A DNA stretch of 64,000 bases from Henriciella sp. AS95 (GTDB lineage: Bacteria; Pseudomonadota; Alphaproteobacteria; Caulobacterales; Hyphomonadaceae): NCBI RefSeq assembly GCF_038900055.1, contig NZ_JBBMQM010000001.1:2542001-2606000 (forward strand), given 5' to 3'. Positions within the stretch are counted from its first letter, which is position 1, and each line of letters begins with the position of its first letter. A model generated the notes under the pieces. The model was given only the letters and a program-made list of their open reading frames with translations, was not told the origin of the DNA and did not search any database. This document shows, one piece after another, positions 10,123-32,840 of the stretch. A program made the translations under genes and the position numbers.

Positions 10123-10146
10123 GCCGTTTTAAGGGTGAAACCCATC

Positions 10147-10947: not shown

Positions 10948-10956
10948 GTCATCTCC

Positions 10957-11898: not shown

Positions 11899-13349
11899 GA
11901 TTCAAGCACCCACGTATCCTTGGTGCCGCCACCCTGGCTGGAATTGACCACCAGCGATCCTTTCTTCAGCGCCACACGAGTCAGCCCGCCTGGCGTGATG
12001 TCGACGCCATTAGGCGAGACAAGCACAAAGGGGCGCAGATCCACATGGCGCGGCGCGAGCCCTTTGTTCGTGAAAATGGGCACGGTGGACAGCGCGAGGG
12101 TCGGCTGGGCGATATACCCATCCGGCTTGGACTGTAGCTTCTTCCTGAATTGAGCGATCTCTTTCTTGCTGGCCGCCGGCCCGACCAGCATGCCGTAACC
12201 GCCAGAGCCATGGACTTCCTTGACCACAAGCTCTTCCAGATTGTCGAGCACGTAAGCCAGCGAGTCCGGGTCTGAACACCGCCATGTTGGCACGTTCGGC
12301 AGCTTCGCTTTCTCGCCAGTATAGAACTCTACGATATCGGGCATGTACGAATAAATCGCCTTGTCGTCCGCGATACCTGTACCGGGCGCATTCGCGATCG
12401 TGATCCCGCCGGCCCGGTAGATATCAAGAATACCCGGCACGCCCAGAACCGATTCCGGATTGAAGTTCATCGGATCAAGAAAAGCATCATCCACCCGGCG
12501 ATATAGAACGTCTACGGGAGTATAGCCCTGCGTCGTTCTCATCGCGACACGGCCATCGACAACCCGAAGGTCATGACCTTCGACAAGCTCGGCCCCCATT
12601 TCGTCAGCCAGAAAGGAGTGTTCGAAATAGGCTGAATTGTGAATACCGGGCGTTAGCACCGCCACGACGGGCTTACCATTACAGGCCGACGGCGCGCACG
12701 CAGCCAGAGACCGCCGCAACCGTTTGGGATAAGTGGAGACCTGGCAGACCTTGTTGCGAATGAAGAGGTCCGGGAACATTTCGAACATCGTCTCCCGGTT
12801 TTCCATCATGTAGGAGACGCCGGACGGCGTGCGAGCATTGTCCTCAAGCACGAAGAACTCATTCTCGCCGGTACGGACGATGTCTGTACCAACAATGTGG
12901 GTGTAAATCCCCCCGGGCGGATCGACGCCGATCATCTTTGGCTCGAAGGCGTCGTTATCACTGATCATCTCGCGCGGTATGCGTCCGGCTTTCACGATTT
13001 CCTGCCGGTGATAGATGTCATGGAGAAATGCGTTGAGCGCGAGGACCCTCTGCTCGATCCCCTCGGACAGTTTCTGCCACTCTCGATTGGAGAGAACGTG
13101 AGGGACGATATCGAACGGTATTAGCCGTTCATTGGCTTCTTCGCGTCCGTAAACATTGAACGTGATACCGGTTCGTCGGAATGCCAGTTCGGCTTCCTTG
13201 GCCTTTTTTCGAAGTATTTTTGGGTCTTCTGTTTCGAACCAGTCACAATAATCTTTATAGGGTTCGCGCGGATTTTCTCCGTGTCCGAACATTTCATCGA
13301 ATGGTGATTTATCGTCAGACATAGCTGGCGAGGGCGCCGTCTCCTTCAT
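11895..13349 (-). CDS. Circularly permuted ATP-grasp type 2 protein (DUF404/DUF407)
   Basis: Putative carboxylate-amine ligase, first gene of the Anbu operon. Family segments are visible in order: YDxF-type opening (SPFDEMFG), LEDNARTPSGVSYMMENR, TPGIHNSAYFEHSFLADEMG, LYRRVDDAFLDP, GTGIADDKAIYSYMP, VVKEVHGSGGYGMLVGP and a glycine-rich end (SSQGGGTKDTWVL). I place the start at the ATG giving 484 residues because AAGGTGA lies ten bases upstream; the frame extends further without a better ribosome site, and another ATG follows nine codons later. By homology it would join amino groups to carboxylates using ATP; the product is unknown. Confidence 0.88.
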   Translation of the reverse strand: MKETAPSPAMSDDKSPFDEMFGHGENPREPYKDYCDWFETEDPKILRKKAKEAELAFRRTGITFNVYGREEANERLIPFDIVPHVLSNREWQKLSEGIEQRVLALNAFLHDIYHRQEIVKAGRIPREMISDNDAFEPKMIGVDPPGGIYTHIVGTDIVRTGENEFFVLEDNARTPSGVSYMMENRETMFEMFPDLFIRNKVCQVSTYPKRLRRSLAACAPSACNGKPVVAVLTPGIHNSAYFEHSFLADEMGAELVEGHDLRVVDGRVAMRTTQGYTPVDVLYRRVDDAFLDPMNFNPESVLGVPGILDIYRAGGITIANAPGTGIADDKAIYSYMPDIVEFYTGEKAKLPNVPTWRCSDPDSLAYVLDNLEELVVKEVHGSGGYGMLVGPAASKKEIAQFRKKLQSKPDGYIAQPTLALSTVPIFTNKGLAPRHVDLRPFVLVSPNGVDITPGGLTRVALKKGSLVVNSSQGGGTKDTWVLES

Positions 13350-13588
13350 TGCAATTGGGTCACCTTTGCATCCGATCGCGTTGGAGGCAAAAACTTTCAC
13401 TTTTACCGGGCGATACAGGGTGAACCTGCCTAATATTCGAGCGGCTGAAACGCAGCAAAGTTCCGAAACAATCGCCAGATTCCCGATGTCAGCTGCGCAT
13501 TTCAGCATTGTGTCTTTTTAGTCACACACCTTATCCGGGAGTAATAACCGACGTGCAACCGGAATGAATGTGCTGCGTTGGAGCCAGC

Positions 13589-14922: not shown

Positions 14923-15852
14923 TCACCGTGCGTCGGCTATGGCCGCCTCGTGCTCGTCTTTCCGCAAGTCTGCGCTAGCGAGCGTAAGCCACTCGCGCAA
15001 CACCGCAATTTTGGGCTCGTTCTTGCGGGCATCGAGAGTGGAAAAATACCAGTTCGCCGGGTGTCTGACGTGCAGGCCCGAGAAGACTTCCACCAGCCGC
15101 CCTTCCGCAAGATCTTCATTGGCGAACGGATCGATGGCGAGCGCCACGCCGAGCCCCTTCGCTGCCGAATCCAGGGCGTGGTCGTAGCTGTCAAAGCGGC
15201 TATCGCCAGCAGAGTCGACCTCGCCCGCCCCGACAGCCTCAAGCCAGACATCCCAGTCACCCTGCGATGGGTAGACCTGCAACAAAGTATGGTCAGAGAG
15301 ATCGGACGGGCGTTTCAAGCCGGGATTGCGAGACAGGTATTCCGGGCTGCAAACAGGATAGACGGTCGAGCTGAAGAGATACGTATAATCGACCTTGTTC
15401 TCACTCGGCTCGCCGATCATCACACACGCGTCTGCCGCCCCTGTGGACAGGTCAATGTCATCCTGAGACGTAACGATACCAAGCTCGATCGAGTCATGCT
15501 CGGCTTTCAATCGGGGCAGCCGCGGCAATAACCAGCGCACCGCGAAGGTTGAATAGACCTGCAGCGTCACCCGGCGACTCCCGCCTTCGCTGATCTCGCT
15601 TGCGGCGTCACTGATACTACGCAAGGCCCGACTGACTTCGACAGAAAATTTTAGCCCCTCGGCCGTGAGATCGAAGCCTGACCGCCCCCGATTCATAAGG
15701 CGGCAGCCCAGCTCCTTCTCAAGTCGCCGGATCTGATGGCTCACAGCAGAAGGGGTGACATTCAGTTCGCTTGAGGCGTCTTTGAAGTTCTGCAACCGGC
15801 AGACCGACTCGAACGCGCGCAGGGCCGTCATTGACGGTAATCTGGGTGTCAC
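14923..15852 (-). CDS. LysR-family transcriptional regulator (GcvA-like)
   Basis: N-terminal winged helix-turn-helix (LRAFESVCRLQNFKDASSEL, then SAVSHQIRRLEKELG) at residues 8-65, followed by a type-2 periplasmic-binding-like effector domain. 309 residues. It uses a GTG start with AAGGA six bases upstream. It is divergent from the TonB receptor operon, with an AT-rich dyad between the two starts, so it is the obvious candidate regulator of the catabolic cluster to its right. The inducer cannot be inferred. Confidence 0.9.
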   Translation of the reverse strand: MTPRLPSMTALRAFESVCRLQNFKDASSELNVTPSAVSHQIRRLEKELGCRLMNRGRSGFDLTAEGLKFSVEVSRALRSISDAASEISEGGSRRVTLQVYSTFAVRWLLPRLPRLKAEHDSIELGIVTSQDDIDLSTGAADACVMIGEPSENKVDYTYLFSSTVYPVCSPEYLSRNPGLKRPSDLSDHTLLQVYPSQGDWDVWLEAVGAGEVDSAGDSRFDSYDHALDSAAKGLGVALAIDPFANEDLAEGRLVEVFSGLHVRHPANWYFSTLDARKNEPKIAVLREWLTLASADLRKDEHEAAIADAR

Positions 15853-15927
15853 TGCAATCCTTCCAAAGAGGCGTAGGCGGCCTCGTCTATTGATGAGCCA
15901 AAATCGAATTCAGCCCATTACATGAAT

Positions 15928-15949
15928 TTTTTTCACTTAAGTCAAAAAA
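15928..15949. promoter_or_regulatory. AT-rich 22-bp dyad, candidate LysR operator
   Basis: A T6 tract and an A6 tract are arranged symmetrically around the core ACTTAAGT, with one mismatched pair next to it. It lies in the 176-bp space between the divergent regulator and the TonB receptor gene, where LysR-type proteins normally bind. Symmetry and position are seen; the binding protein is inferred. Confidence 0.45.
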
Positions 15950-16028
15950 TTATCTGCCTTTGCCAGCCGCCCAGCTACCGCTACCCAGACGATCGAAACA
16001 CTTGAAATCTATTGGGAGAGACCGCGCA

Positions 16029-18413
16029 ATGCCAACGCATATTCGCCTTCGTGACACCGTTAAAGGATCAGCGTCGAGGTTTGAACTTGCTTCGGTTCTC
16101 CTCTCATCAACCGCGATAGCGCTTGCGGTCGCAGCGCCCCAGGCCTCGGCTCAACAGGCCGAAGGCGATAGCGAGGCGCGGCTCGGCACGGTCACCGTCA
16201 CAGCCCAGAAACGCGAAGAGAATCTGCAGGATGTGCCGCTGTCCATTCAGGCCATCACGAATGAGGAAATCGAAAATCTCGGCATTGAGCAGTTCGAGGA
16301 CCTCGCCTTCCTGTCGCCATCGACCTCGTTTGTCAGCTCTGGGCCCGGCACCCAGAACCTCTTCATCCGGGGCGTCGCCGACGGGTCGAACCCCAACCGT
16401 CCGAATACCGCGACGGCGACGCTTTATCTCGACGAGCAGCCGCTCACCGTCGGCGGGACAATCATTGACCTGCACGGCTATGACATCGAGCGCTATGAGG
16501 TGCTCAACGGGCCGCAAGGTACATATTATGGTGCAGGGGCCGTGTCAGGCACCGTCCGGATCATTACCAACAAGCCGGACCCATCGGGCTTTGAAGCGGG
16601 TTTCGACGTTACAGCGGGCCTGATCGAGGAAGGTGACTCGATCCGGACCGTCGAAGGCTTCGTCAATCTTCCAATCGCGGAAGACCGCGCCGCCGTGCGC
16701 CTGGTTGGCTGGTACGACTATGACGGCGGCTTCATCGACAATATCCCGTTCCAGCGCACCTGGACCAATGGCGCCGTCGGCGACAACAGCCAGGTTGCCG
16801 AGGAAGACTACAACACCACAGAGATCTTTGGCGGGCGCGCAGCGCTCACAGCCGATCTGACACCCGACTGGACCGGCACCGTCTCCGCCTTCTACCAATC
16901 CGCGGAAACATCAGGCGCCTGGGATCATGACCCACGCCGCCGCGGCGACCTCCAGGTCGTTCGTTTCGGCCCGGATACCGGAGACCGCGAATTCGGCCAG
17001 ATTGCGCTGACCCTCGAGGGCAGCACGCCAATCGCCGACATCGTCGCCACGACCTCCTACTTCAAGCAGAACAACAAGACATCGAACGACTATTCCGATT
17101 ACGTCGAATATGCCTCCTTCAATCAGTGGATCCAGCAATTCGCCTGCGACGAGTTCTACTATTACGGAAATGTCGGCTGCAACGACCCACGCCAGACCTT
17201 CAATGGCGACTATGAAGACAGCCGCTGGTCAACCGAAATCCGGGCGACGTCTAACCATGACGGCCCGCTCCAGTGGATCCTCGGGGCCTATTTCGAGCAG
17301 AATGACAACGAAACATCGATGTTCTGGGACATGCCCGGCATCAAGTTCGAGGGCGCACCTGCGGCTTACTATCTCGGCCTTTATGGCGGCGATCCGCTGC
17401 CGAATGAATGGTATTCCGTCTACGGCAAATCAGACAGCGAGCAGCAGGCTGTCTTCGGCGAGATCAGCTATCAGTTCACCGACAAGCTGAAAGCGACGCT
17501 CGGAGCGCGCTTCTTCGAGGATTCCTTCGAGAGCGCACCGGGTGGCTGGTCGACTTACTTCTATTCGCCAAAGACGGGGTCGGAGGGATCATCCGGTTCG
17601 ACGAGCGGCGAAGGCTTCAAGTTTAACGTCCAGTACCGGTTCACCGACGACTTGCTCGGCTACTTCAACTTTGCGCAGGGCTTCAGGCAGGGCGGATCGA
17701 ACGGCGCGGTTGGTGAAACCAATCCGCTGGTGCCGCAGACCTACGAGCCAGATTATCTCGATTCCTATGAGATCGGGATGAAGACCCAGTTCGCCAATGG
17801 GCGGGTGACGCTCAATGGCGCGATCTACAAGATGCTGTGGGATGACTTCCAGACGTCCATCTACGATATCAATATCGCGCCGGTCGTCTTCTACGCCAAT
17901 GCCGGCAATGCCGAAATCACCGGCGCCGAAATGGATCTGAGAACCTTCATCACCGACGACTGGACGTTCAATTTCTCGGCCAACTATACCGACTCCGTCC
18001 TGGCAGAAGACTTCGTCTCGCTTGTCGACGCGAACCAGAACTTTGCCGAAGAAGGCACCCGCCTGCCATACGTGCCGGAGTGGAAATTCACCTCGTCGAG
18101 CCGGTATGAATTCAGCCTGTCCGACACCCTCGATGGATATGTACAGGCGAGCTACGCCTATACCGGCGACACTTACAATCTGCTGGTAAATGATCCTTTC
18201 CGGCCTGAAATCGCTCCGGAAAAGCAGGATTCCTATGGCCTGCTCGACCTACGCACCGGCATTGACCGGGGCAATTATACGCTGGAGCTCTTCGCAACGA
18301 ACGTGACGGACGAACGCGCCGAGCTGTTCATCAACAATGGCTATTATGATGAGCGGATCACAACCAACCGGCCAAGGACCATCGGTCTGAAGCTGACCGG
18401 GCGTTTTAATTAG
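16029..18413 (+). CDS. TonB-dependent outer-membrane receptor
   Basis: Outer-membrane active transporter. Start at the ATG after GGGAGAG, giving 794 residues with a signal peptide ending near ASAQQ. The plug domain begins LGTVTVTAQKREENLQDVPL and includes GPQGTYYGAGAVSGTVRI; the barrel ends with an aromatic-rich strand finishing in Asn-stop. Membership of the broad TonB receptor family common in sphingomonads and Hyphomonadaceae is clear; the ligand is not. It heads a seven-gene unit with esterases and a BCCT transporter, so an ester or organic cation is more likely than iron. Confidence 0.93.
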   Translation: MPTHIRLRDTVKGSASRFELASVLLSSTAIALAVAAPQASAQQAEGDSEARLGTVTVTAQKREENLQDVPLSIQAITNEEIENLGIEQFEDLAFLSPSTSFVSSGPGTQNLFIRGVADGSNPNRPNTATATLYLDEQPLTVGGTIIDLHGYDIERYEVLNGPQGTYYGAGAVSGTVRIITNKPDPSGFEAGFDVTAGLIEEGDSIRTVEGFVNLPIAEDRAAVRLVGWYDYDGGFIDNIPFQRTWTNGAVGDNSQVAEEDYNTTEIFGGRAALTADLTPDWTGTVSAFYQSAETSGAWDHDPRRRGDLQVVRFGPDTGDREFGQIALTLEGSTPIADIVATTSYFKQNNKTSNDYSDYVEYASFNQWIQQFACDEFYYYGNVGCNDPRQTFNGDYEDSRWSTEIRATSNHDGPLQWILGAYFEQNDNETSMFWDMPGIKFEGAPAAYYLGLYGGDPLPNEWYSVYGKSDSEQQAVFGEISYQFTDKLKATLGARFFEDSFESAPGGWSTYFYSPKTGSEGSSGSTSGEGFKFNVQYRFTDDLLGYFNFAQGFRQGGSNGAVGETNPLVPQTYEPDYLDSYEIGMKTQFANGRVTLNGAIYKMLWDDFQTSIYDINIAPVVFYANAGNAEITGAEMDLRTFITDDWTFNFSANYTDSVLAEDFVSLVDANQNFAEEGTRLPYVPEWKFTSSSRYEFSLSDTLDGYVQASYAYTGDTYNLLVNDPFRPEIAPEKQDSYGLLDLRTGIDRGNYTLELFATNVTDERAELFINNGYYDERITTNRPRTIGLKLTGRFN

Positions 18414-18416
18414 TGC

Positions 18417-20144
18417 ATGAGACGCGCATTGTCCGCCGGGCTGTTGGCCGCCGCCGCAACCGCGTGCTCAACCTCAACGGTTGAACGCACGCAGGTGATC
18501 GACGCGGTCACCGAGTATGGCGTCGTACACGGCCACCCATCAGATGGAGCAAGGGCCTGGTTCGCCATTCCCTATGCCGCAGCGCCAGTGGACGATTTGC
18601 GATGGGAGCCGCCTCAGCACCCGCAAGCTTGGACCGGCGCGCTGAACGCTGACCAGCCTGGACAGCCATGTGCCCAGCCCGGCTATGAAGAGGACGGCGC
18701 CTTCAAGGTGCTCGGTTTCGAAGACTGCCTGACCCTCAACGTCTATGCGCCCGCCGAGACCGCAGACAAGCCGCTGCCCGTCATGGTGTGGATCCATGGC
18801 GGCGGAAACTATGCCGGGTCCGCCGCTGAATATGATGGGTCTCGTCTGGCAGCTGCGCAGGACGTGATCGTCGTCACGGTGAACTACCGGCTCGGACCAT
18901 TCGGCTGGTTTCATCACGAGGCGATGACGACCGCCGATGACGGCTCGGCCCGGACCGGTCAGTTCGCCCTGCTCGACCTGATCGCTTCCCTGGAATGGGT
19001 CGAGGCGAACATCGGTGCTTTTGGCGGCGATGCGGACAATGTGACAATCTTCGGGGAATCGGCAGGCGCACAAAATGTTTATGCGCTGGTCTTGGCCAAG
19101 CGGGCTGCCGGCCTGTTCGACAAGGCCATCGCCGAGAGCGGCGGCTTCTGGAATATGAGCTTGCCGCAAGCCCGCAACCTGACAACCGAAACGCCGCCCG
19201 GCACGCGCGCAAGCGCCAATGAGATTATCGTCGACCTGCTCATTCAGGACGGCCGCGCAGACTCGCGGGCGGACGCCACCGCTTTGATTGAGACAATGTC
19301 ACAGGATGATCTTCTGGACTGGATGCGCGGTCTGGACACCGAATCTATTCTTCGTCCCTACGCTGACCAGCACGATCTCGGCTATGACCTGCCGAGCGTG
19401 GTTCAGGACGGCGTCCTGCTACCAAAGACCGATCACCGCGCGCACATTGCGTCGGGAGACTACAATCAGGTCCCGATGCTGATCGGAAGCAACCGGAATG
19501 AACAGAAGCTCTGGCAGGCCTTCGATCCGTCCTTCGTCGATTGGTCCAGTGGCGCTCCGGATATCCTGGACCGGAACCGGTACACAGCCGTCGACCAGCA
19601 CTATTCCAACCTCTGGACCTTCGACGCCGTGGACGATCTCGCGCCGCGTCTGGACGCGCCCGTCTTCGCCTACCGTTTCGACTGGGACGAGCAACCGTCA
19701 CAGCCCGTGGACTGGCCATTTCTGATGGGCTCATCCCATGGACTGGAAATCCCCTTCGTGTTCGGCACGTTTGAGGCCTCGGGCATCGAGGATATTTTCA
19801 ACGATGACAATGAAGCCGGGCGGCTGACGCTTTCAGACGCGATGATGTCCTATTGGGGCGCATTCGCTCATACAGGCGATCCCGGCGCTGGCGCGGACAG
19901 CGGGCTGACCGACTGGCCGTCATGGCAGACATCCCAATCCAAGCTCATCTTTGACACCGGCCCGCTAAGCATTGAGCGCGTACCGGATGAAAGCCGCGAA
20001 CAGCTGCTCGACGCGGCGCTCGGCGATACGCGTTTGACCGATGCCGACCGCTGCCTGATCCTGCATCACAATAGCCTCTATCCCAGTCTCGACATCAAGC
20101 GCCTCGCCGAGGCCGGATGTGAGCCTGCCTGGGCCGGGGAGTAG
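18417..20144 (+). CDS. Type-B carboxylesterase, predicted lipoprotein
   Basis: Alpha/beta hydrolase of the carboxylesterase/cholinesterase family. Nucleophile Ser215 in FGESAG, catalytic His441 in GSSHGLEIPFVFG, oxyanion-hole segment WIHGGGNYAG. The N terminus (MRRALSAGLL...) has a possible lipobox ending at Cys17, so it probably acts in the periplasm or at a membrane surface. 575 residues, three bases after the TonB receptor stop. A second family member lies five genes downstream. Natural substrates in this family include esters of choline-like alcohols, but substrate cannot be assigned from sequence. Confidence 0.9.
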   Translation: MRRALSAGLLAAAATACSTSTVERTQVIDAVTEYGVVHGHPSDGARAWFAIPYAAAPVDDLRWEPPQHPQAWTGALNADQPGQPCAQPGYEEDGAFKVLGFEDCLTLNVYAPAETADKPLPVMVWIHGGGNYAGSAAEYDGSRLAAAQDVIVVTVNYRLGPFGWFHHEAMTTADDGSARTGQFALLDLIASLEWVEANIGAFGGDADNVTIFGESAGAQNVYALVLAKRAAGLFDKAIAESGGFWNMSLPQARNLTTETPPGTRASANEIIVDLLIQDGRADSRADATALIETMSQDDLLDWMRGLDTESILRPYADQHDLGYDLPSVVQDGVLLPKTDHRAHIASGDYNQVPMLIGSNRNEQKLWQAFDPSFVDWSSGAPDILDRNRYTAVDQHYSNLWTFDAVDDLAPRLDAPVFAYRFDWDEQPSQPVDWPFLMGSSHGLEIPFVFGTFEASGIEDIFNDDNEAGRLTLSDAMMSYWGAFAHTGDPGAGADSGLTDWPSWQTSQSKLIFDTGPLSIERVPDESREQLLDAALGDTRLTDADRCLILHHNSLYPSLDIKRLAEAGCEPAWAGE

Positions 20145-20150
20145 ACTGTG

Positions 20151-22178
20151 ATGGTGGAGACAATGACCGACGCACCAAGGGGCACGATACGCCAGGCGTT
20201 CGAACGCGCCCGTGGGCTTGTCCAGCAAGGGCAACGCACGCTCGCCGTGCAACAGCTTGAGGCCATTCTCGAAGCCGAGCCCAACGAAGTGAACGCGCTT
20301 CTCCTGCTGGGCTCGCTCCGGTCGGTCGAGGGCCGTCTGAAAGACGCCGAAGCATTGGTTCGCAAGGCGAGCGACCTAGCGCCGGACTTCCACGATGCCT
20401 CCCTTGAACTCGCCCGCATCCAGCGTCTGTCGAAGAATACGAGCGACGCGATCAATACGCTTCGAAAGCTCATCGATCGCGCTCCATCGAACAACCGCGC
20501 CTGGCAGCTTCTGGGCGACAGCCTCTATGAGAACGGCCAGACGCGCGAAGGCCGCGACGCGTTTCGACAGGCCGCTCAGGTGGATCCCCACCGCAACCAG
20601 ATCCGCGGCGCGATTGAGGCCCTGAAAGACGGTCGAAATCATGAGGCCGAGCAGTCCCTGCGTGCGGTGCTGACAGCCGAGCCAAACCATGTCCACGCGC
20701 TTGTAGGGCTCGCCTCGCTCGCCATTGAAGCTGGCGCAACCGAAGATGCCGAGCATCTCCTGGAACATGCGCGCCGCATTTCCCCCTATTCCGACATCGT
20801 CTGGCGCAATGTTGCCCGGCTTCATTCCGAACGCGCCAACAATGGCGCCGCCGTCGAGGCCGCACGGCGCGCTGTGGAGCTTGATCCGGACGCCGCCGAC
20901 GCCTGGTCGATGCTCGGCAACGTTCAGGCCTGGGGCCTGAAACCCGAAGAGGCCGAGGCAAGCTTTACCCGGTCGCTAGAGCTCCGGAATGAGCAGCCGC
21001 GTGTGTGGATGTCGCTTGGGCATGTCCGTAAAACGCTTGGCAATCGCCAAGGCAGCGAAGCCGCCTACAAGGAGGCGATCAGCCAGCAGCCTGATCTCGG
21101 TGAAGCCTTTTGGAGCCTCGCCGACCTCAAGACCTATGTTTTCTCAGACGCCGACCTGCAATCCATGCTGAGCATGCTGCAAACGCCCGGCGTAGGTGAC
21201 ACCGATCTAGCAGGGTTTCACTTCGCCCTCGGCAAGGCTTTCGAGGACCGCAAGGATTTCGGGCCGTCCTTCGAGCACTACGCTGCCGGCAATGCCATCA
21301 AGGCCAGACTCGATCCCTTCGACGCAGATGGTTTCAGCGACACCATCAATGCTGTCGAACAGGTCTTCGACACCGCTTTCATGGGCACGCCGCCGCTGCC
21401 GGCACCACCAGATGAAATCGTGCCGGTTTTCATCGTCGGGCTCCCCAGGTCAGGCTCGACTTTGGTTGAGCAGATTCTTGCCTCGCACTCGCGCGTCGAA
21501 GGCACGATGGAGCTGCCGCATATTCTCAACTATGTGCGTTCGATGAAGTCAGGCGGCGGTTACCCGCAATCTGTCGCCGACATGCCTCCGGAAGAGCTGC
21601 GCGCGCTTGGTGAGCGCTATATCGCCGAGACAGAGGCTTACCGGACCGGGCAGGACTTCTTCATCGACAAGATGCCGAACAACTTCCTGCATGTCGGCCT
21701 GATCGCGAAAATGCTGCCGCAAGCCGTATTTATCGATGCGCGGCGCGATCCGCGTGATTGCTGCCTGTCGGCCTTCAAGCAGAATTTCGCACGCGGTCAG
21801 ACTTTTAGCTACGGGCTCGATATTCTCGGGCAATATTACCGTGACTATCTGCGCGTCATGCGCCACTGGGACCACGTTCTGCCGGGGCGGGTTCACCGCG
21901 TTCAGTACGAATCCATGGTCTCCGATACAGAGCGCGAGATCCGCAATCTGCTCGCCCATTGCGGCCTCGATTTCGAACCGGCTTGCCTCGCCTTTCATGA
22001 AACCAGGCGCGCGGTTCGCACCGCTAGCGCTGAACAGGTGCGCCAGCCGATCTATGCGCGAGGCGTCGGCCACTGGAAGAATTTCGAACCGTGGCTTGGA
22101 GAGCTTTTTACCGCGCTCGGAGATGCAATTCCAAGCGACACCCCCAATGCGTCGGGCACGTCCGACAACAATATTTAA
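20151..22178 (+). CDS. TPR-repeat sulfotransferase fusion protein
   Basis: Residues about 10-330 are tandem tetratricopeptide repeats; residues about 425-660 are a sulfotransferase domain with the 5'-phosphosulfate loop VGLPRSGSTLVEQILASH and a 3'-phosphate-binding region RRDPRDCCLSAFKQNF. This architecture resembles protein or peptide sulfotransferases, with the repeats presenting the acceptor. GGGGAG lies nine bases before the chosen ATG (675 residues); a GTG one codon earlier and an ATG four codons later are alternatives. It lies inside a catabolic operon, an unusual setting with no obvious metabolic link. Confidence 0.85.
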   Translation: MVETMTDAPRGTIRQAFERARGLVQQGQRTLAVQQLEAILEAEPNEVNALLLLGSLRSVEGRLKDAEALVRKASDLAPDFHDASLELARIQRLSKNTSDAINTLRKLIDRAPSNNRAWQLLGDSLYENGQTREGRDAFRQAAQVDPHRNQIRGAIEALKDGRNHEAEQSLRAVLTAEPNHVHALVGLASLAIEAGATEDAEHLLEHARRISPYSDIVWRNVARLHSERANNGAAVEAARRAVELDPDAADAWSMLGNVQAWGLKPEEAEASFTRSLELRNEQPRVWMSLGHVRKTLGNRQGSEAAYKEAISQQPDLGEAFWSLADLKTYVFSDADLQSMLSMLQTPGVGDTDLAGFHFALGKAFEDRKDFGPSFEHYAAGNAIKARLDPFDADGFSDTINAVEQVFDTAFMGTPPLPAPPDEIVPVFIVGLPRSGSTLVEQILASHSRVEGTMELPHILNYVRSMKSGGGYPQSVADMPPEELRALGERYIAETEAYRTGQDFFIDKMPNNFLHVGLIAKMLPQAVFIDARRDPRDCCLSAFKQNFARGQTFSYGLDILGQYYRDYLRVMRHWDHVLPGRVHRVQYESMVSDTEREIRNLLAHCGLDFEPACLAFHETRRAVRTASAEQVRQPIYARGVGHWKNFEPWLGELFTALGDAIPSDTPNASGTSDNNI

Positions 22179-22196
22179 GACAGGAAAAGGCTGGCC

Positions 22197-23036
22197 ATGG
22201 TCGACATCATGTCAGGAAAACCCACCGCAGGAGCGGATGAACGCGAAGACCGGACGGGCCAGCCCAGCCAGGGCGTCGCCGTGATCACGGGCGCAGCGTC
22301 CGGCATCGGAAAAGCGATCGCTGAAAAGATGCTCGCCGATGGTTGGCATGTTCATATCTGTGACGCGAACCCGCAGGCTGTCGAAGCCTTTAACGCCGCC
22401 AATCCGAAAATCGGGGCGAGCCATGCCGATGTCAGTGATCCAGACCAGGTCGCTGCCCTTGTCGCTGACGTGATGGCCAAGCACGGCCGGATCGATATCC
22501 TCATCAACAATGCCGGTATTTCCGGCATGACGGCTCCGGTCGAGACGTTCGACCAGGAGGACTGGCGCCGCACGATAGATATCAACATCAATGGCAGCTT
22601 CTATTTCGTCCGCGAAGTCGTGCCTGCGATGAAGAAGGCCGGAAAAGGCGCAATCATCAATATTGCCTCGACCGCCGCCCTGTTCGGCTACCCTCAGCGC
22701 ACAGCCTACGCCACGTCGAAGTGGGCCATGCTCGGCTTTACCAAAACGCTCGCCATGGAGCTTGGTCCGCAGGGTATTCGCGTGAATGCGGTGTGCCCTG
22801 GCTCGGTGGAAGGTCCAAGGATCGACGGCGTCATCCAGCGCGATGCCGCACAACGCGGGCGCGATGCCGCAGACATAAGACGCGTTTACGAGTCCCAGGT
22901 CTCCATGCGCAAATTCGTTCGCGCAGAGGATATCGCCAACATGTGCGCTTTTCTGGCCTCCGACGCCGCCGCAATGGTTTCGGGCCAGATCATCGCTGTC
23001 GACGGGCACACTGAAAGCCTGTCCAACCCCCTATAA
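22197..23036 (+). CDS. Short-chain dehydrogenase/reductase, NAD-type
   Basis: Classical SDR of 279 residues: TGAASGIG cofactor loop (31-38), NNAG (104-107), catalytic Ser158, Tyr171 and Lys175. An Asp at the end of the second strand (ICDANPQ) favours NAD over NADP, fitting an oxidative role. About 25 extra residues precede the fold. Strong ribosome site AGGAAAAGG. It lies between the sulfotransferase and an MDR reductase, in the same unit as a BCCT transporter and opposite BKACE and thioesterase genes, so oxidation of a beta-hydroxy acid such as carnitine is a reasonable hypothesis, not an assignment. Confidence 0.88.
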   Translation: MVDIMSGKPTAGADEREDRTGQPSQGVAVITGAASGIGKAIAEKMLADGWHVHICDANPQAVEAFNAANPKIGASHADVSDPDQVAALVADVMAKHGRIDILINNAGISGMTAPVETFDQEDWRRTIDININGSFYFVREVVPAMKKAGKGAIINIASTAALFGYPQRTAYATSKWAMLGFTKTLAMELGPQGIRVNAVCPGSVEGPRIDGVIQRDAAQRGRDAADIRRVYESQVSMRKFVRAEDIANMCAFLASDAAAMVSGQIIAVDGHTESLSNPL

Positions 23037-23047
23037 CGAGGTACGAT

Positions 23048-24040
23048 ATGAAAGCGGTCTGGTTTGACCAGTTCGGTCCAGCAGGCGAAGTCCTGACCGT
23101 CGGCGAGAAGCCGACGCCCACGCCCGCAGCCGGCGAGGTCCTCGTCCGGCTGAAGACGAGCGGACCCAACCCGTCCGACGTCAAGAAGCGGGCGGCCTCC
23201 TTCCCCAACCTCCTCGACAATGGCTACGTCATTCCTCACAGCGATGGCGCCGGTATCATTGAAGCCGTTGGCGATGGCGTTTCACAGGAACGCGTTGGCG
23301 AACGTGTCTGGGTCTACCAGGCGCAATATGGCCGCCGGTTCGGCACAGCCGCCGAATATGTCGCTGTCGAAAGCCAACGAGCACCAAAGCTGCCAGATGC
23401 GGCGAGTTTCGAGATCGGGGCCTGCCTCGGCATCCCGGTCATGACCGCGCACAGGACCGTCTTTGCTGGCGGCGACGTCAAGGGACAGACCGTGCTGATC
23501 ACCGGCGGGGCCGGCCGGGTTGGCTATTACGCCATCCAGTGGGCTGCGATGGCCGGCGCGACCGTCATCGCGACCGCCAGTAATGATGCTGATGCGGCCA
23601 CCTGCCGCGAGGTCGGCGCGCAGCATGTCGTCAATCACCGGGATGAGGACTGGCCTGCGGACCTGCTCACCTTCACCAAGGGCGAAAAGGTTGATCGCAT
23701 CGTCGATGTCGACTTTGCGACCAATATCGAAAAGTCGCTCGAGATCATCCGCACCAGTGGGACCATCGCGACCTATTCCTCCGGTACCAATCTCAACCCG
23801 GTCATCCCGTTCTACCGAATGATGTTCATGGACCTCACCGTCTACATGGCCATCGTCTATGCCATGCCGGAAGAGGCCAAGCAGGCGGCGATCAAGGATA
23901 TCGACACCGCGCTCACCGCCGGGACACTAAAGCACCGCATCGCCGAAACGCTTCCGCTAGACGACTGCGCAAAGGCGCACAAGTTAATCGAAGACGGCAA
24001 GGCAAAAGGCTGCGTGGTCCTGCAGGTCGGGGATGCTTGA
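23048..24040 (+). CDS. NADPH:quinone reductase-like MDR oxidoreductase
   Basis: Medium-chain dehydrogenase/reductase of the zeta-crystallin/quinone oxidoreductase branch, 330 residues. N-terminal GroES-like domain (MKAVWFDQFGPAGEVL), no zinc-binding Cys/His set, nucleotide fold with ITGGAGRVGYYAIQWA. Members reduce quinones or activated double bonds with NADPH. It follows the SDR by 11 bases and its stop overlaps the next start by eight bases, so it belongs to the same unit. Its role in the pathway is not evident. Confidence 0.87.
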   Translation: MKAVWFDQFGPAGEVLTVGEKPTPTPAAGEVLVRLKTSGPNPSDVKKRAASFPNLLDNGYVIPHSDGAGIIEAVGDGVSQERVGERVWVYQAQYGRRFGTAAEYVAVESQRAPKLPDAASFEIGACLGIPVMTAHRTVFAGGDVKGQTVLITGGAGRVGYYAIQWAAMAGATVIATASNDADAATCREVGAQHVVNHRDEDWPADLLTFTKGEKVDRIVDVDFATNIEKSLEIIRTSGTIATYSSGTNLNPVIPFYRMMFMDLTVYMAIVYAMPEEAKQAAIKDIDTALTAGTLKHRIAETLPLDDCAKAHKLIEDGKAKGCVVLQVGDA

Positions 24041-25586
24041 TCGGGGGCACCCATCTTTCTGCTTTCTGATCAGCGTGATCACGCTCGCCTCGCTGATCCT
24101 GGCGGCATGCGCTTCGACGCCATCTGGCGGGCAGCGCGCTCCGGCGGTTGAGACCACATCTGGTACATTGTCTGGCGTCTCTTTCCTGGATAAGGGCGGC
24201 GAGTTCCTGGGTGTCCCGTTCGCTGCGCCTCCGACTGGAGACAGTCGATGGCATTCCCCTGCTCCACCCCAGCCTTGGCAAGGCACCCGTCCAGCCACCG
24301 CCTTCGCGCCGGCCTGCCCCCAAGGCGAGTATACGACGGCCTGGTATGCCGACCTGATCGCCGCCTTCGGTGGTGACTCGGAAACGGCCGCCCGGCCCGT
24401 CGGCGAAAGCGAAGATTGTCTCTACCTCAATATCTGGTCGCCGGACCTGACACCGGACGAGCCTCTGCCCGTCATGGTCTGGATCCATGGTGGCGCCTAT
24501 AAGGGCGGCTGGTCCTATGAGCCGAATTACCTCGGCGACCGCCTTGCCGAACGCGGCGTGATCGTCGTGTCCATCGCCTATCGCATGGGCCCATTCGGCT
24601 ATATCGGCCCGGACGGCCGCGCGAATTTCGGCCTGCAGGACCAGATCCGGGCGCTTGACTGGATCCAGTCGAACATCGCTCAGTTTGGTGGCAATGCAGA
24701 GAATGTAACCGTGTTCGGTGAGTCTGCCGGCGCATCATCGATCGGCACACTCATTGTGTCGCCCGCAGCAGACGGTCTGTTCGACAAAGCGATCCACCAA
24801 TCCGGCGGCTTTGAATTCATTGAGACCGGCACGACAGCCACGGCAGCAGAGGCGTTCGACACGCTGCAGGCCGCGCTTGGCGACGAAGATGCCCAGTCGG
24901 CAAGCTGGCTAACTATCCTGGAAGCGAGCAATGACGTGCTCTCGGACTACTGGTTCGCGCCCGTGACCGATGGCGCATTGCTGCCCCAATCGCCCCGACA
25001 ATTGCTTCGGGCAGGCCAGTTCAACGAGGTCGACATCATGATCGGCACGAATGCCGACGAATGGCTGATGTATATCGACCCCGCCAGCGCAGATGATGCC
25101 CTCGCGACCTGGCGCGACAGGCTCCCAGACGCGACGGGCCTTATCGATGCGCTCGTCGAAACGCATGGCGAAGTCGGCGCGCTTGACCGCATTGAGACCG
25201 CTGATCAGATGCGTTGCCCGGGCCGGATGCTTGCACGCGCCCTCGGGGGCGCCGGACAAAATGTCTACGCCTACCGCTTCACGCGCGTCCGGCCCGCCGA
25301 GACAGACCCGCCGCTGGGAAGCTATCATGGCGCCGAAATCCCGTACGTGTTCGGCACGCATGATGACTGGCTACCGACAGACGAAATCGATCGCGCGATC
25401 ACCGAAACAATGATGTCGGCCTGGGTCGCCTTTGCCCGGACGGGCTCGCCCCAGAGCGCTGAGGCCTGGCCGGACTATTCCGACACCGGAAAACTGCTTG
25501 AAATCGGCGATACGATTGGACCAGCCTCACCACTGGACGACGCGCTGTGCCAACACATTGATGCCTTCAGGAGGCTTGAAGAATGA
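24033..25586 (+). CDS. Type-B carboxylesterase, predicted lipoprotein (second copy)
   Basis: 517 residues with a clear lipoprotein signal (LILAAC, Cys26), oxyanion segment WIHGGAYKGG, nucleophile Ser231 in FGESAG and catalytic His432 in SYHGAEIPYVFG. Related to but clearly diverged from the esterase at the head of the operon, so the pair may differ in acyl preference. The stop overlaps the start of the BCCT transporter gene (ATGA), which suggests that hydrolysis at the membrane surface is coupled to uptake of the freed product. Confidence 0.9.
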   Translation: MLDRGHPSFCFLISVITLASLILAACASTPSGGQRAPAVETTSGTLSGVSFLDKGGEFLGVPFAAPPTGDSRWHSPAPPQPWQGTRPATAFAPACPQGEYTTAWYADLIAAFGGDSETAARPVGESEDCLYLNIWSPDLTPDEPLPVMVWIHGGAYKGGWSYEPNYLGDRLAERGVIVVSIAYRMGPFGYIGPDGRANFGLQDQIRALDWIQSNIAQFGGNAENVTVFGESAGASSIGTLIVSPAADGLFDKAIHQSGGFEFIETGTTATAAEAFDTLQAALGDEDAQSASWLTILEASNDVLSDYWFAPVTDGALLPQSPRQLLRAGQFNEVDIMIGTNADEWLMYIDPASADDALATWRDRLPDATGLIDALVETHGEVGALDRIETADQMRCPGRMLARALGGAGQNVYAYRFTRVRPAETDPPLGSYHGAEIPYVFGTHDDWLPTDEIDRAITETMMSAWVAFARTGSPQSAEAWPDYSDTGKLLEIGDTIGPASPLDDALCQHIDAFRRLEE

Positions 25587-27121
25587 CCACTGAAACCGGG
25601 GAAAAAACCCATCAGACAGACTGGGTCGCCTTCAGCGCCGCGAGCTTTCTCGTGCTGGCCGTCTGCGTCGCCCTGCTCGCCCAGCCGAGCACTGGCGCGG
25701 TGGTGCTGCCGGCGATCTATGACTGGATCGCGACTGAACTTGGTCCGCTCTACCTTCTGGCGGGCACAGCAACGATCATTTTCCTGGCCTGGCTGGCCTT
25801 TAGCCGGTTCGGCCATGTCCGGATCGGCGGCGCCGACGCAAAGGCGGAGTTCTCGAAAGTCAGCTGGGCCGGCATGCTGTTCTGCGCGGGCGTCGGGGCT
25901 GGCCTCATGTACTGGGCTGCGATCGAGTGGGCTTATTACCTCGATACACCGCCCTTCGGGATCGAGGCCCGAAGTCGGGAATCCCTGCAATGGGCGTCGG
26001 CCTATGGTCTCTTCCATTGGGGACCATCGGCCTGGGCCTTCTATTGCCTGCCGACCCTCGCGATTGCCTATGCCTACCATAACCGCAAGAGCCCCTATCT
26101 TCGCCTTAGCGCCGGGTGCGCCGGGTTTTCGGCGCTTGCGCCCAACACGCCGGGCGGGCGGGCCATCGACCTCATCTTCATGATCAGCCTTCTTGGCGGC
26201 GCGGGGTCATCGCTTGGATTCACCACACCGATGATCGCCGCCCTCATCGCCCGCATGCTCGGCATCGAAACCTCCTTCCAGCTGGAAGTGATCGCGATGG
26301 TCGTGATCATCGCCCTGTTTGCGACGAGCGCGGCCGTCGGCATCAAACAAGGCATCAAACGCCTGACGGACCTGAATGTCTGGCTCCTGTTCGGCTTTCT
26401 CGCCTTCGTGCTGTTCAGTGGCCCGACGGTCTGGCTCATCAAGACCGCGATCAATGCAACCGGCCTTGTTGCGCAGAATTTCATCCGCCTGAACAGCTGG
26501 ACCGAACCCTTCGGCACGACGGATTTCGTGAAGGACTGGACGATCTTCTACTGGGCCTGGTGGATCGCCTACGGACCGGTCGTCGGCCTTTTCGTCGCGC
26601 GTATCTCTCGCGGGCGAACCCTGCGCGAAATCATTTTCGGCATGCTGGGTTTCGGCACGCTGGGCGCCGGCCTCTTCTTCGTCATTCTCGGGAATTACGG
26701 CCTCTGGCTAGAGACAGTCGGCGGCATCGACATCAGCTCATACATTGATGAGAGCGGCGGGTCTGCGGCGATCGTCGAGATGATCTACCAGCTGCCCCTG
26801 CCCGCCCTCGCAGCAGGCGTGTTCTGTGTCGCGGCCATCGTGTTTTCCGCGACCACCTATGACTCGGCCTCCTACATCCTGGCCTCGAATGCGACGAAGT
26901 CGCTGCCGGCCGGAGACGATCCGGCGATCTGGCAGAGACTGTTCTGGGCGTTGATGCTGGGGCTGCTGCCGCTGAGCCTGCTTTTTGTCGGAGGTCAGCG
27001 CGTCGTTCAGACGGCCGCTCTGATCGCGTCGGTGCCGCTGATCCTGATCGGCGTGGTGATGGCCTGGTCGCTCGTGCGAAAGCTCAAGGCCGATCACCCG
27101 CCGGGTCAGGTTGCTGGTTAG
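25583..27121 (+). CDS. BCCT-family transporter (betaine/carnitine/choline)
   Basis: Secondary transporter of 512 residues with twelve membrane helices. Family hallmarks: FCAGVGAGLMYWAAIEWAYY in the region of helix 3 with the Gly-rich and Trp-box residues that bind trimethylammonium groups, and WAWWIAYGPVVGLFVARIS in the central Trp-rich segment. Substrates of the family are quaternary ammonium or sulfonium compounds such as betaine, carnitine, choline and DMSP. It is the last gene of the operon and ends convergently with the thioesterase gene, overlapping by four bases. Confidence 0.93.
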   Translation: MTTETGEKTHQTDWVAFSAASFLVLAVCVALLAQPSTGAVVLPAIYDWIATELGPLYLLAGTATIIFLAWLAFSRFGHVRIGGADAKAEFSKVSWAGMLFCAGVGAGLMYWAAIEWAYYLDTPPFGIEARSRESLQWASAYGLFHWGPSAWAFYCLPTLAIAYAYHNRKSPYLRLSAGCAGFSALAPNTPGGRAIDLIFMISLLGGAGSSLGFTTPMIAALIARMLGIETSFQLEVIAMVVIIALFATSAAVGIKQGIKRLTDLNVWLLFGFLAFVLFSGPTVWLIKTAINATGLVAQNFIRLNSWTEPFGTTDFVKDWTIFYWAWWIAYGPVVGLFVARISRGRTLREIIFGMLGFGTLGAGLFFVILGNYGLWLETVGGIDISSYIDESGGSAAIVEMIYQLPLPALAAGVFCVAAIVFSATTYDSASYILASNATKSLPAGDDPAIWQRLFWALMLGLLPLSLLFVGGQRVVQTAALIASVPLILIGVVMAWSLVRKLKADHPPGQVAG

Positions 27122-27537
27122 TTTTCCGCAGACGGCTCGACGAAACTTTCCGCGCCCGCACGCAGATCGTCCGGAATGGCGATCGCCTTGCGCGCGTCGA
27201 GGTCGAAGTAGACCGAAATGCTCTCCAGCGTCGCCGCGATATTGCCCTTGCTGAGATTGTGCATCTCATAGCGGATCGTCACCGACTTGCCGCCGATCTT
27301 CTCGAGCGCCCCGCGGACTTCGAGAAGATCGCCTTTCGCAATCTCATCCTGATACTCGATCGTATGTTTCACGTCGGCCCAGCCTGGCCCGCTGGATTCG
27401 CCCGGCGACCAGCCAAAGGCCTTGTTCAGAAAATGGTATGAAGCATCGTCGAACATGGCGACGTAGTGGCGCGTTGTCATGTGGCCCAAGACATCGCACA
27501 GCCATGGATGAGCCACCCCTTGATAGACGGTAATCAC
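27118..27537 (-). CDS. Hotdog-fold acyl-CoA thioesterase, similar to betainyl-CoA thioesterase (CdhB type)
   Basis: 4-hydroxybenzoyl-CoA-thioesterase-like hotdog protein of 139 residues, with [20 protein letters not shown] at the active-site helix. It starts at GTG overlapping the stop of the BKACE gene (GTGA), with GAGGAAG upstream. In known carnitine degradation a thioesterase of this type hydrolyses betainyl-CoA to betaine and CoA, directly after the BKACE step, and the two genes are neighbours. That pairing and the adjacent BCCT transporter support this role here; sequence alone would only say acyl-CoA thioesterase. Confidence 0.82.
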
Positions 27538-28451
27538 GCCGACTTCCTCACAAGCGCCGGGGCGTCCTGCTTCTTCACATTCAGCGCCTTGCGCGCCTCA
27601 GCGGGTGTCTGGATGCTGGCGCCCATATTCTCGAGAATGGTGCGCGCTTTCTCAACCAGCTGCGCATTTGAGGCGAGGGTCCCTTTCGACAGGTAGAGAT
27701 TGTCTTCAAGGCCCACGCGGACGTGACCGCCAAGAAGCGCGGCTTGCGCAACCATCGGCATTTCCATCGCGCCAAGCGCAAAGCCGGCCCAGTTGGCGCC
27801 TTCCGGCAGATTGTCGACCATGGTCATGAAGTTCTGAGGCGTCGCCTCGGCCGCCCAGCGCACGCCCATGCACACTTGGAAGAGCGGCGGGGCATCGAGC
27901 AGGCGCTCTTCCTGGAGCTGCTTTGCAAACCAGATATGGCCAAGCTCGAACACTTCGAGTTCCGGCTTCACACCAATTTTCTGCAGGCGCTTTGCCCCAA
28001 GGCGCAGCATGTCGGGCGACGACACATAGACATAATTGCCGCCCGGATAGTTGAAGGATCCGCAGTCGAGCGAACAGATTTCCGGCAACAGGGCTTCGAC
28101 ATGCTCCATCCGTTCGACCTGGCCGACGAGGTCAGTTGCCTTTTCCAGGGCGAGCGGGTCTTCGTCGGGCCCCAGATAGAGATCGCCGCCCATACCGGTG
28201 GTGAGGTTGATCACAACATCGGTATCTTCCTCGCGGATCCGCTCGACGACTTCCCTGTAAAGGTCGACATCGCGGCTCGGCGCGCCGGTCTTTGGGTCAC
28301 GGACGTGAATATGCGCGATGGCTGCGCCCGCTTTTGCGGCCTCGATCGACGCCTTGGCGATTTCCTTCGGTGTGACCGGAACGTGCGGCGAGCGGTCGGC
28401 AGTTTCGCCGGATCCGGTGATGGCGCAGGTGATAATAATGTTGCGATTCAT
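27534..28451 (-). CDS. Beta-keto acid cleavage enzyme (BKACE, DUF849), probable 3-dehydrocarnitine cleavage (CdhC type)
   Basis: Zinc enzyme of the Kce family, 305 residues. It condenses a beta-keto acid with acetyl-CoA to give acetoacetate plus a new acyl-CoA. Zinc ligands His47 and His49 (HIHVRD) and Glu249 (GLEDNLYL) are present. Substrate varies widely in the family; the translationally coupled thioesterase and facing BCCT transporter point to 3-dehydrocarnitine, giving betainyl-CoA. First gene of a two-gene operon. No gene of the usual L-carnitine dehydrogenase type (CdhA) is adjacent. Confidence 0.85.
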
Positions 28452-31661: not shown

Positions 31662-32840
31662 ATGACCTTCTCGAAGCGAGACCGACTGCGCCTTCTCGGC
31701 GGCGCTGCTATTGCAGCCCTCGCAGCCTGTGGCGGCGGAGGCGGTTCTACCCCATCGCCCGCTCCATCGCCGCCACCACCGCCTCCTCCACCGCCACCGC
31801 CCCCACCCGCTGTAAATATTCTCCGGGATGTCTACGCCGCCAACTTTCCAGTCGGGGCGGCCATTCAGGCGAGCCAGATCCAGACGGCGACCGAAGACCG
31901 CGCTATTCTGGAGGAACAGTTTTCATCCATTACCGCCGAGTATGAGATGAAGCCGGACATCATCGCTCCCAATCAGGGCAGCTATAATTTCGCGCCTGCC
32001 GACGCGATCGTGGACTGGGCGGAGGCCAATAATATCGCGGTTCGGGGTCACGCTCTGCTCTGGCATCAGACAACACCGGACTGGATGCTGACGGGCATGG
32101 TCAGCGATATTCGCGACAAGCTTCAGCAATATGTAACCGATGTGGTGACCCGCTATCGCGGCCGCATCTATGCGTGGGATGTCGTGAACGAAGTCGCGAG
32201 CGACAGTGCGGGCGCCGCCGCGCCCTATCGTAATTCGAACTGGTACCAGGCTGTCGGCGGCCCGGAGTTCATCGACTGGGCCTTCGAGGCTGCCCGCGCC
32301 GCCGATCCTGACGTGAAGCTCTTCATCAATGATTATAGTACGGAGCAATCGAGCAAACGCGCGCGCCTCCTCGCCATCGTGCAGGACCTTGTATCCCGCG
32401 GCATCCCGGTCGATGGCGTTGGTCACCAGTTCCATCTGCAGATCAATGCCGACCCTGCCGACGCCCTCGCCGCCATCGATGCCGTCGACGCGCTCGGCTT
32501 CGGGCTTGAAAACCACGCCACCGAGATCGATGTCTCGGTCTATAGTGATCCCGCTGAGTGCTTTTCGTCCGGCGTGAACTGCCAGTCGAGCTATGGCACG
32601 CGCGCAAGCGACGTTCCCGACAGCATCTACGCGCAGCAGGCCGCGATCTATCGCGGCTTGTTCGATGGCTTTTCAGAGCGCGACAGCGTCACCTCGGTAA
32701 CCATGTGGGGCGTTCAGGATGCCCAGTCATGGCTGAACAATTTCCCGGTCAGCCGTAATAATTACCCGCTGCTCTTCGATCCGTCGCGGAACCCGAAACC
32801 CGCCTTCCTGGCCATCACCGATCCCGACTATGAGATCTGA
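31662..32840 (+). CDS. Endo-1,4-beta-xylanase, glycoside hydrolase family 10, lipoprotein-anchored
   Basis: Hydrolyses internal beta-1,4 bonds of xylan. Acid/base Glu177 (AWDVVNEV) and nucleophile Glu288 (ATEIDVS) are in place, with the GHALLWHQ and DGVGHQFHLQ substrate-binding segments. The N terminus is a lipoprotein signal (LAAC, Cys23) followed by five glycines and a linker containing thirteen consecutive prolines (residues 37-49), so the enzyme is probably displayed on a membrane surface rather than secreted free. Single-domain, 392 residues, no carbohydrate-binding module. No other xylan gene is nearby. Confidence 0.93.
   Translation: MTFSKRDRLRLLGGAAIAALAACGGGGGSTPSPAPSPPPPPPPPPPPPPAVNILRDVYAANFPVGAAIQASQIQTATEDRAILEEQFSSITAEYEMKPDIIAPNQGSYNFAPADAIVDWAEANNIAVRGHALLWHQTTPDWMLTGMVSDIRDKLQQYVTDVVTRYRGRIYAWDVVNEVASDSAGAAAPYRNSNWYQAVGGPEFIDWAFEAARAADPDVKLFINDYSTEQSSKRARLLAIVQDLVSRGIPVDGVGHQFHLQINADPADALAAIDAVDALGFGLENHATEIDVSVYSDPAECFSSGVNCQSSYGTRASDVPDSIYAQQAAIYRGLFDGFSERDSVTSVTMWGVQDAQSWLNNFPVSRNNYPLLFDPSRNPKPAFLAITDPDYEI

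Follow-up and report, generated by a model that had tools for sequence, protein, structure and literature searches.

A candidate acylcarnitine-type degradation island in Henriciella sp. AS95 with a short-chain dehydrogenase as possible stand-in for CdhA

How might a bacterium that carries a CdhC-type β-keto acid cleavage enzyme (BKACE) and a CdhB-like thioesterase, and no CdhA, oxidize the 3-hydroxyl group of a carnitine-like substrate? The question is raised by an island of ten genes at positions 14923-28451 of a 64-kb stretch of Henriciella sp. AS95 DNA (hereafter the window, meaning the entire stretch), delineated from open reading frames (ORFs) and Pfam and NCBIfam matches. Following a LysR-type regulator gene on the minus strand, the plus strand encodes a TonB-dependent receptor, the carboxylesterase EstA, a tetratricopeptide-repeat sulfotransferase (TPRST), a short-chain dehydrogenase/reductase (SDR), a medium-chain dehydrogenase/reductase (MDR), the carboxylesterase EstB and a BCCT transporter, which are faced by thioesterase and BKACE genes on the minus strand. 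We put at about 0.5 the probability that the island uses esters of a carnitine-like onium hydroxy acid, with the SDR replacing CdhA on a route to betaine.

By this scheme, the TonB receptor would carry the ester across the outer membrane, the lipoprotein esterases EstA and EstB would cleave it at the cell surface, and the BCCT protein would import the freed zwitterion. The NAD-dependent SDR would convert the 3-hydroxyl to a 3-keto acid (the step of CdhA elsewhere), the BKACE would use acetyl-CoA to form betainyl-CoA (or a homologue) and acetoacetate, and the thioesterase would release betaine. We infer all of the reactions, the order in which they run, and the substrate with its stereochemistry from sequence; the substrate is presumably carnitine (L or D) or some related onium hydroxy acid. 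A first-pass annotation of this DNA had proposed much the same pathway, which is partly supported by the analysis given here.

The genes named in that annotation are all present, although it omitted both the divergent LysR gene and the TPRST (20148..22178, +; PF13469, 165.5 bits, plus TPR families) lying between EstA and the SDR. Gaps within the unit are short, or neighbors overlap: MDR and EstB by 8 bases, EstB and BCCT by 4, and thioesterase and BKACE by 4, consistent with the earlier description of the last two as a coupled pair facing the rest. The island is a real unit, with the BKACE-thioesterase pair turned round in the window, because the gene set is conserved and collinear in relatives. 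In two loci from another family of the same order (L204, L206), all ten genes occur in the order LysR, TonB receptor, EstA, TPRST, SDR, MDR, EstB, BCCT, BKACE, thioesterase, with LysR divergent; a third locus of that family (L205) has nine of the ten, EstA being missing. Three loci from the window's own family (L021-L023) encode TPRST, TonB receptor, SDR, MDR, EstB, BCCT, BKACE and thioesterase on a single strand, and EstA was not found there as a separate gene. The six genes from SDR to thioesterase are collinear (SDR-MDR-EstB-BCCT-BKACE-thioesterase) in a gammaproteobacterial metagenome-assembled genome (MAG) of the Porticoccaceae (L040), most parts are present but rearranged in L018 and L019, and a genome of the window's genus (G025, locus L020) has the BKACE-thioesterase pair alone. 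Within the family, 8 of 105 genomes contain a window-type BKACE (E ≤ 1e-40), seven at 78-100% identity (the window's own included) and one at 49%.

The BKACE (27534..28451, -; PF05853, 336.5 bits) had been assigned to the dehydrocarnitine (CdhC) type, an assignment borne out by its residues and tree position. The trees described here are quick ones with branch support by SH-aLRT only, and one wider search for relatives retained the best 80 of at least 544 matches. In a tree of 94 rows (34 of 128 having been removed by hand: nearly identical SAR11 rows, further duplicates and L043, which is partial), the window BKACE belongs to a 20-row clade (SH-aLRT 99) nested within an 80-row set (98) that includes every CdhA-adjacent BKACE of the tree. 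Across 71 CdhA-adjacent BKACEs, of which many are SAR11 rows that scarcely differ, 78 positions are at least 95% conserved, and 66 of these are conserved in the 20-member clade as well. Residues G15, M87-G-G-D90, C130 and C194 are common to the clade and the CdhA-adjacent enzymes, and occur in 0-6 of 20 other BKACEs; H47, H49, R245, E249 and D250, which we take to be the zinc-binding and catalytic positions, are intact. Activity toward 3-dehydrocarnitine is predicted from tree position and signature residues. The best plasmid relative is 61.7% identical, and the first five annotated plasmid loci of 621 matched records (Caballeronia, Paracoccus, Novosphingobium, Agrobacterium and Citricoccus; BKACE 56-60%) all contain a CdhA-type gene. 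Further loci include Leisingera (54%), with a CdhA-type gene, Cupriavidus (50.5%), with two SDR genes instead, and Paraburkholderia (37%) and Sulfitobacter (32%), with neither.

The thioesterase gene (27118..27537, -) scores 38.1 bits, far under cut-off, to the thioesterase part of the PRK07531 carnitine 3-dehydrogenase; despite this weak match, its overlap with the BKACE gene agrees with the proposed CdhB-type partner of CdhC. Of the 20 clade members, 19 (all but L042) have a thioesterase match close to the BKACE.

CdhA, which has the 3HCDH fold, was not found anywhere in the host genome, where the best match to model NF005471 reaches 79.3 bits against a cut-off of 414; the earlier statement that no CdhA is present thus holds genome-wide. 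A hidden CdhA elsewhere in the host was rejected on scores: the model reaches 79.3, 61.2 and 59.8 bits at three places, one of which, the window protein at 5981-7270, scores 281.5 bits to FadJ versus 75.9 and 59.4 to carnitine dehydrogenases (all NCBIfam models). None of eight genomes, the host among them, exceeds the cut-off, nor was CdhA found in the 19 genomes searched from the 20-member BKACE clade (L042 lies outside the sample), the best score being 101.5 bits; L043, which is not in the BKACE tree, is also without it. Of those 19, seven belong to the set of eight and 12 to a further set of 29, in which 11 genomes score 311-433 bits; we counted matches of at least 311 bits as CdhA, since fused forms from carnitine loci are among them. 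Because all but two of the 29 fall short of the curated cut-off (414), the score gap, rather than the cut-off, carries the argument for absence; one genome (G733, locus L050) lies between the two score groups at 171.6 bits. Absence is firmer in the ten alphaproteobacterial genomes, nine of them 99-100% complete, because the gammaproteobacterial genomes lack completeness figures.

This leaves the SDR (22197..23036, +; PF13561, 214.2 bits), the only match to its own sequence in the host genome at E ≤ 1e-45. It is a classical NAD-type enzyme, with D56, S158, Y171 and K175 present in all 66 subfamily sequences, the window's included, and it belongs to a subfamily in which D56, G110, R168, W176 and R208 occur in 65-66 of 66 members versus 0-4 of 22 other SDRs; the two arginines and the aromatics might bind a carboxylate and an onium group. 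Its nearest solved chain, 5unl, is named 3-ketoacyl-ACP reductase, and D-3-hydroxybutyrate dehydrogenases are among the 11 listed. The 28-row clade to which it belongs (SH-aLRT 85; long outgroup branches) includes SDRs encoded near a BKACE in OM182 (L039), Porticoccaceae (L040), Rhodospirillaceae-type MAGs (L050, L051) and SAR11 loci; a clade SDR in the gammaproteobacterial MAG L080 is ∼6 kb from a BKACE. The clade also contains the SDRs of four loci without BKACE (L123, L125, L127, L159).

As these clade SDRs had been found via BKACE, the reverse test was run, starting from the SDR. In 385 genomes of the class, 73 have a match, at 84 places, of which 38 were opened (the window and G035 excluded; stretches fall below 20 kb where contigs end). 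BKACE genes are present in 20 of the 38 neighborhoods (12 of 28 for the complete ranks 3-30, and eight of ten hand-picked from ranks 31-53 blind to context), 13 at 48-60% identity and seven at 33-36%, and come from 12 families of the sample. By a rough yardstick, any BKACE (E ≤ 1e-30) occurs in 85 of 299 genomes of the order, so that one within a given 20 kb should be rare by chance. Among plasmids, four of ten opened loci (from 63 matching records) have a BKACE near the SDR and six have none nearby; in one of the four, a Phaeobacter sp. G2 plasmid, the SDR gene overlaps the end of a carnitine 3-dehydrogenase gene. In G599 and in two SAR11 assemblies (L079, L110), where a genome-wide search gave no CdhA, the SDR likewise stands beside a BKACE. 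Because its relatives adjoin BKACE genes or lie in canonical carnitine operons, the SDR is, on sequence grounds, the best candidate for the missing 3-dehydrogenase.

The BCCT protein (25583..27121, +) exceeds the cut-offs of PF02028 (461.9 bits; 27) and TIGR00842 (434.3; 407.55), falls below that of the carnitine-specific CaiT model PRK03356 (377.3 versus 541), and groups with carriers of onium compounds, in accord with the earlier prediction of a quaternary-ammonium carrier. EstA (18417..20144, +; PF00135, 317.5 bits) and EstB (24033..25586, +; PF00135, 327.6 bits) are both type-B carboxylesterases, as had been stated, with lipoboxes (...TAC and ...AAC, respectively) read by eye; among the solved structures related to EstB are pNB esterase, acetylcholinesterases and a single chain that carries the name acylcarnitine hydrolase, and hydrolysis of O-acylcarnitines is predicted for the pair. 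EstB was found in L021-L023 and L204-L206. The TonB receptor (15960..18413, +), whose true start is probably a later ATG, is 67% identical in L204 and L206 and 36-39% in L021-L023; TPRST, found in L018, L019, L021-L023 and L204-L206, adjoins TonB receptors in relatives. The LysR-type gene (14923..15852, -; best model GcvA, 235.5 bits, under the cut-off of 288) has divergent homologs in L023 (61% identity) and in L204, L205 and L206 (48-54%), and is a probable regulator of the unit.

The MDR (23048..24040, +) is probably of the zinc-less quinone-oxidoreductase type: TIGR02824 is its best model (158.9 bits, under the cut-off of 296.8), and seven of the 15 solved structures related to it carry the name quinone oxidoreductase. 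Although its best solved relative is an alcohol dehydrogenase (2eih), a zinc alcohol dehydrogenase is disfavored by that best model and by the zinc ligands, which are missing by eye. Relatives of the MDR (41-44%) are found in a recurring cluster with genes recognized by eye as Rieske and hydrolase genes (L163-L165, and in part L167). Near the SDR-MDR pair of relatives there is also a protein of ∼150 amino acids, DUF3237-like by eye, that is missing in the window (L018 11361-11822; L019 11053-11514; L159 7547-7999; L161 10808-11260; L162 2648-3109).

Several observations weigh against carnitine-type ester use with the SDR as dehydrogenase. CdhA-like genes are also present in 14 of the 20 stretches with SDR and BKACE (one weak, three at 40-41%), so that the SDR may catalyze a different step or use the opposite enantiomer, and four genomes with the SDR near a BKACE but without CdhA in that stretch (G620, G676, G734, G737) have CdhA elsewhere. 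This co-occurrence, seen also in most of the SAR11 loci listed, would be explained if the SDR were a D-carnitine dehydrogenase (or acted on the acid from a D-acyl ester), with CdhA-bearing relatives using both hands, the island using one, and both enzymes feeding one BKACE. We consider this unlikely. D-carnitine is, to our knowledge, not a common natural compound, and stereochemistry is unreadable from sequence. An Agrobacterium D-carnitine enzyme reportedly has a subunit of ∼28 kDa, but there is no annotated SDR in the stretch around the pAt carnitine operon of A. fabrum C58, a strain that differs from that Agrobacterium. PMC2131755 names D-carnitine dehydrogenase among the activities of bacteria.

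Other adverse points concern the coherence of the island. Nine of the 20 BKACE-clade members are without a clade SDR in the stretch examined (some stretches being short), several plasmid relatives of the SDR that lack a BKACE lie in sugar-acid-like or acyl-CoA clusters, and the MDR and sulfotransferase are unexplained by the proposed pathway. SDR and MDR occur together in ten genomes of the family, six of which have a BKACE, so that the substrate of the SDR need not be carnitine; the subfamily's link to BKACE and carnitine operons stands. Such a pattern would arise if two units adjoined: one running from LysR through the TonB receptor, esterase, sulfotransferase, SDR and MDR (perhaps with the second esterase) for an unrelated ester, on whose alcohol or acyl part the SDR and MDR would act, and a separate betaine-forming unit of BCCT, BKACE and thioesterase, with its dehydrogenase elsewhere. 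The pair is without BKACE in G022, G023, G026 and G071 (contigs of the last three, in assemblies 85-95% complete, end near these genes), BKACE-thioesterase is without such an SDR nearby in G025 (L020) and several gammaproteobacterial genomes, and in the window it faces the remaining genes. We nevertheless regard two units as rather doubtful, as BKACE-thioesterase comes after the other genes, without a change of strand, in L021-L023, L040 and L204-L206, and in L050 and L051 the SDR is directly upstream of the BKACE in a stretch that contains neither MDR nor esterase. In G022 (99% complete), the slot after BCCT (L159 14021-16475) is filled not by BKACE-thioesterase but by genes for 3-oxoacid CoA-transferase (subunit A, 215.6 bits, cut-off 128.5; the next ORF looks by eye like subunit B), together with a member of the 3-hydroxyisobutyryl-CoA hydrolase family (294.6 bits, cut-off 274). 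This replacement counts against a carnitine route, but its enzymes still suit a 3-keto acid, and another 3-keto-acid-activating enzyme in the same slot argues against two units.

Further points concern the onium acid itself. The 80-row BKACE set is not purely carnitine-linked, because six other BKACEs (L024, L192, L193, L196, L197, L199) lie within it; F133 and Y135 are peculiar to the 20-member clade and positions 198 and 200 are changed, which may indicate a shifted substrate; and the closest solved BCCT is DddT, a carrier of dimethylsulfoniopropionate (DMSP), at 456 bits, with CaiT at 248. The same architecture could therefore serve another onium 3-hydroxy acid, such as gonyol (5-dimethylsulfonio-3-hydroxypentanoate), which SDR oxidation followed by BKACE and thioesterase would turn into DMSP, with betaine not the product. 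GcvT-like methyltransferase genes are near clade members L056 and L057 and near the SDR-BKACE loci L276, L278 and L279, and their proteins distantly resemble DMSP demethylase (100 and 158 bits versus 410). We find this distinctly unlikely, since the BKACE retains the CdhC positions noted above and nests among CdhA-linked enzymes, and gonyol offers no explanation for the island's ester genes. In two gammaproteobacterial MAGs without CdhA, moreover, BKACE-thioesterase stands beside a gene resembling dimethylglycine dehydrogenase (DMGDH) or sarcosine oxidase (L046 8287-14930; L047 2091-7002), accompanied in L046 by a trimethylamine-methyltransferase-like gene, a setting that fits betaine. Gonyol is itself a phytoplankton zwitterion (PMC7221440).

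Known systems share parts of the island. The first-pass annotation knew of no ester-directed version of this pathway, but the Pseudomonas aeruginosa caiX-cdhCAB-hocS operon, which serves short-chain acylcarnitines (PMC5806209), is already one: like the island, it brings together a CdhC-type BKACE, a CdhB-type thioesterase, an ester hydrolase and an uptake protein on a route to betaine. In contrast to that operon as described there, the island has an SDR for CdhA, a BCCT protein for CaiX and its ABC transporter, two type-B carboxylesterases for HocS and a LysR protein for CdhR, and adds a TonB receptor, a sulfotransferase and the MDR. An Acinetobacter carnitine cluster joins an alpha/beta hydrolase to LysR and BCCT genes (PMC9162365), and a Novosphingobium capsulatum plasmid locus (L027) likewise has a TonB receptor, BKACE and alpha/beta hydrolase in one carnitine locus, but with a fused carnitine 3-dehydrogenase, a GlxA-type regulator and no SDR match in the stretch. 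The SAR11 loci resemble the island in placing a clade SDR beside a CdhC-type BKACE, often with a thioesterase; unlike it, most of those listed have CdhA, and none has an esterase or TonB-receptor match. A published SAR11 island comprises ADH, CDH, BKACE, ACOT and BBOX (PMC12421898), and we infer that its ADH is of this SDR type.

In P. simiae, an NAD-dependent SDR, deoxyribonate dehydrogenase, and a BKACE degrade 2-deoxyribonate, a free 3-hydroxy acid, the SDR giving a 3-keto acid for proposed BKACE cleavage (PMC6365646); the likeness is drawn from the published description, and substrate, transporters and accessory genes differ. A sugar-acid pathway of this kind, acting on a polyhydroxy acid, is highly improbable here: no lactonase or glycerate kinase is seen among the island's ORFs and Pfam matches, the carrier is BCCT rather than MFS, and the BKACE has the CdhC signature, with the SDR-linked Cupriavidus BKACE (L197) in another subclade. 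Ester hydrolysis joined to carnitine use, and an SDR with BKACE on a free 3-hydroxy acid, are thus already known. No report of an SDR as carnitine dehydrogenase was found among the titles and abstract openings listed from the open PMC literature (the first 20 of 248 for one query); on that basis, what appears unreported is the SDR with CdhA absent genome-wide, placed in a conserved gene set that also encodes a TonB receptor, surface esterases and a sulfotransferase.

On a 33-kb contig of the host (C2; L242, L243), there are ProXWV-like genes, a TMAO-demethylase-like protein (943 bits, under a cut-off of 1100, for a scanned piece that is cut off where the stretch ends) and a protein that is DMGDH-like by eye. 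These methylated-amine genes are perhaps a sink for betaine; a look-up of betaine demethylation in the host genome gave, besides them, three unassigned Rieske proteins. Elsewhere in the window, genes read by eye as a proteasome-type protease, transglutaminase, alpha-E and circularly permuted ATP-grasp protein lie in a row (9388-13508), and a GH10 xylanase, also by eye, has a lipoprotein-like start (31662-32840).

Tentatively, and at somewhat less than even odds, we propose that the SDR subfamily marked by D56, G110, R168, W176 and R208 is a non-homologous carnitine 3-dehydrogenase replacing CdhA in marine bacteria of Hyphomonadaceae, gammaproteobacterial and SAR11 type, coupled in the window to a TonB receptor and surface esterases that would take in and cleave acylcarnitines or another onium-hydroxy-acid ester. 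If so, the aerobic route from carnitine to betaine, for which CdhA has been the marker, would have been overlooked in marine bacteria with BKACE-thioesterase and without CdhA; a sequence would be assigned to a 3-dehydrogenase step, possibly that of D-carnitine; and lipoprotein carboxylesterases beside TonB receptors would gain a rationale.

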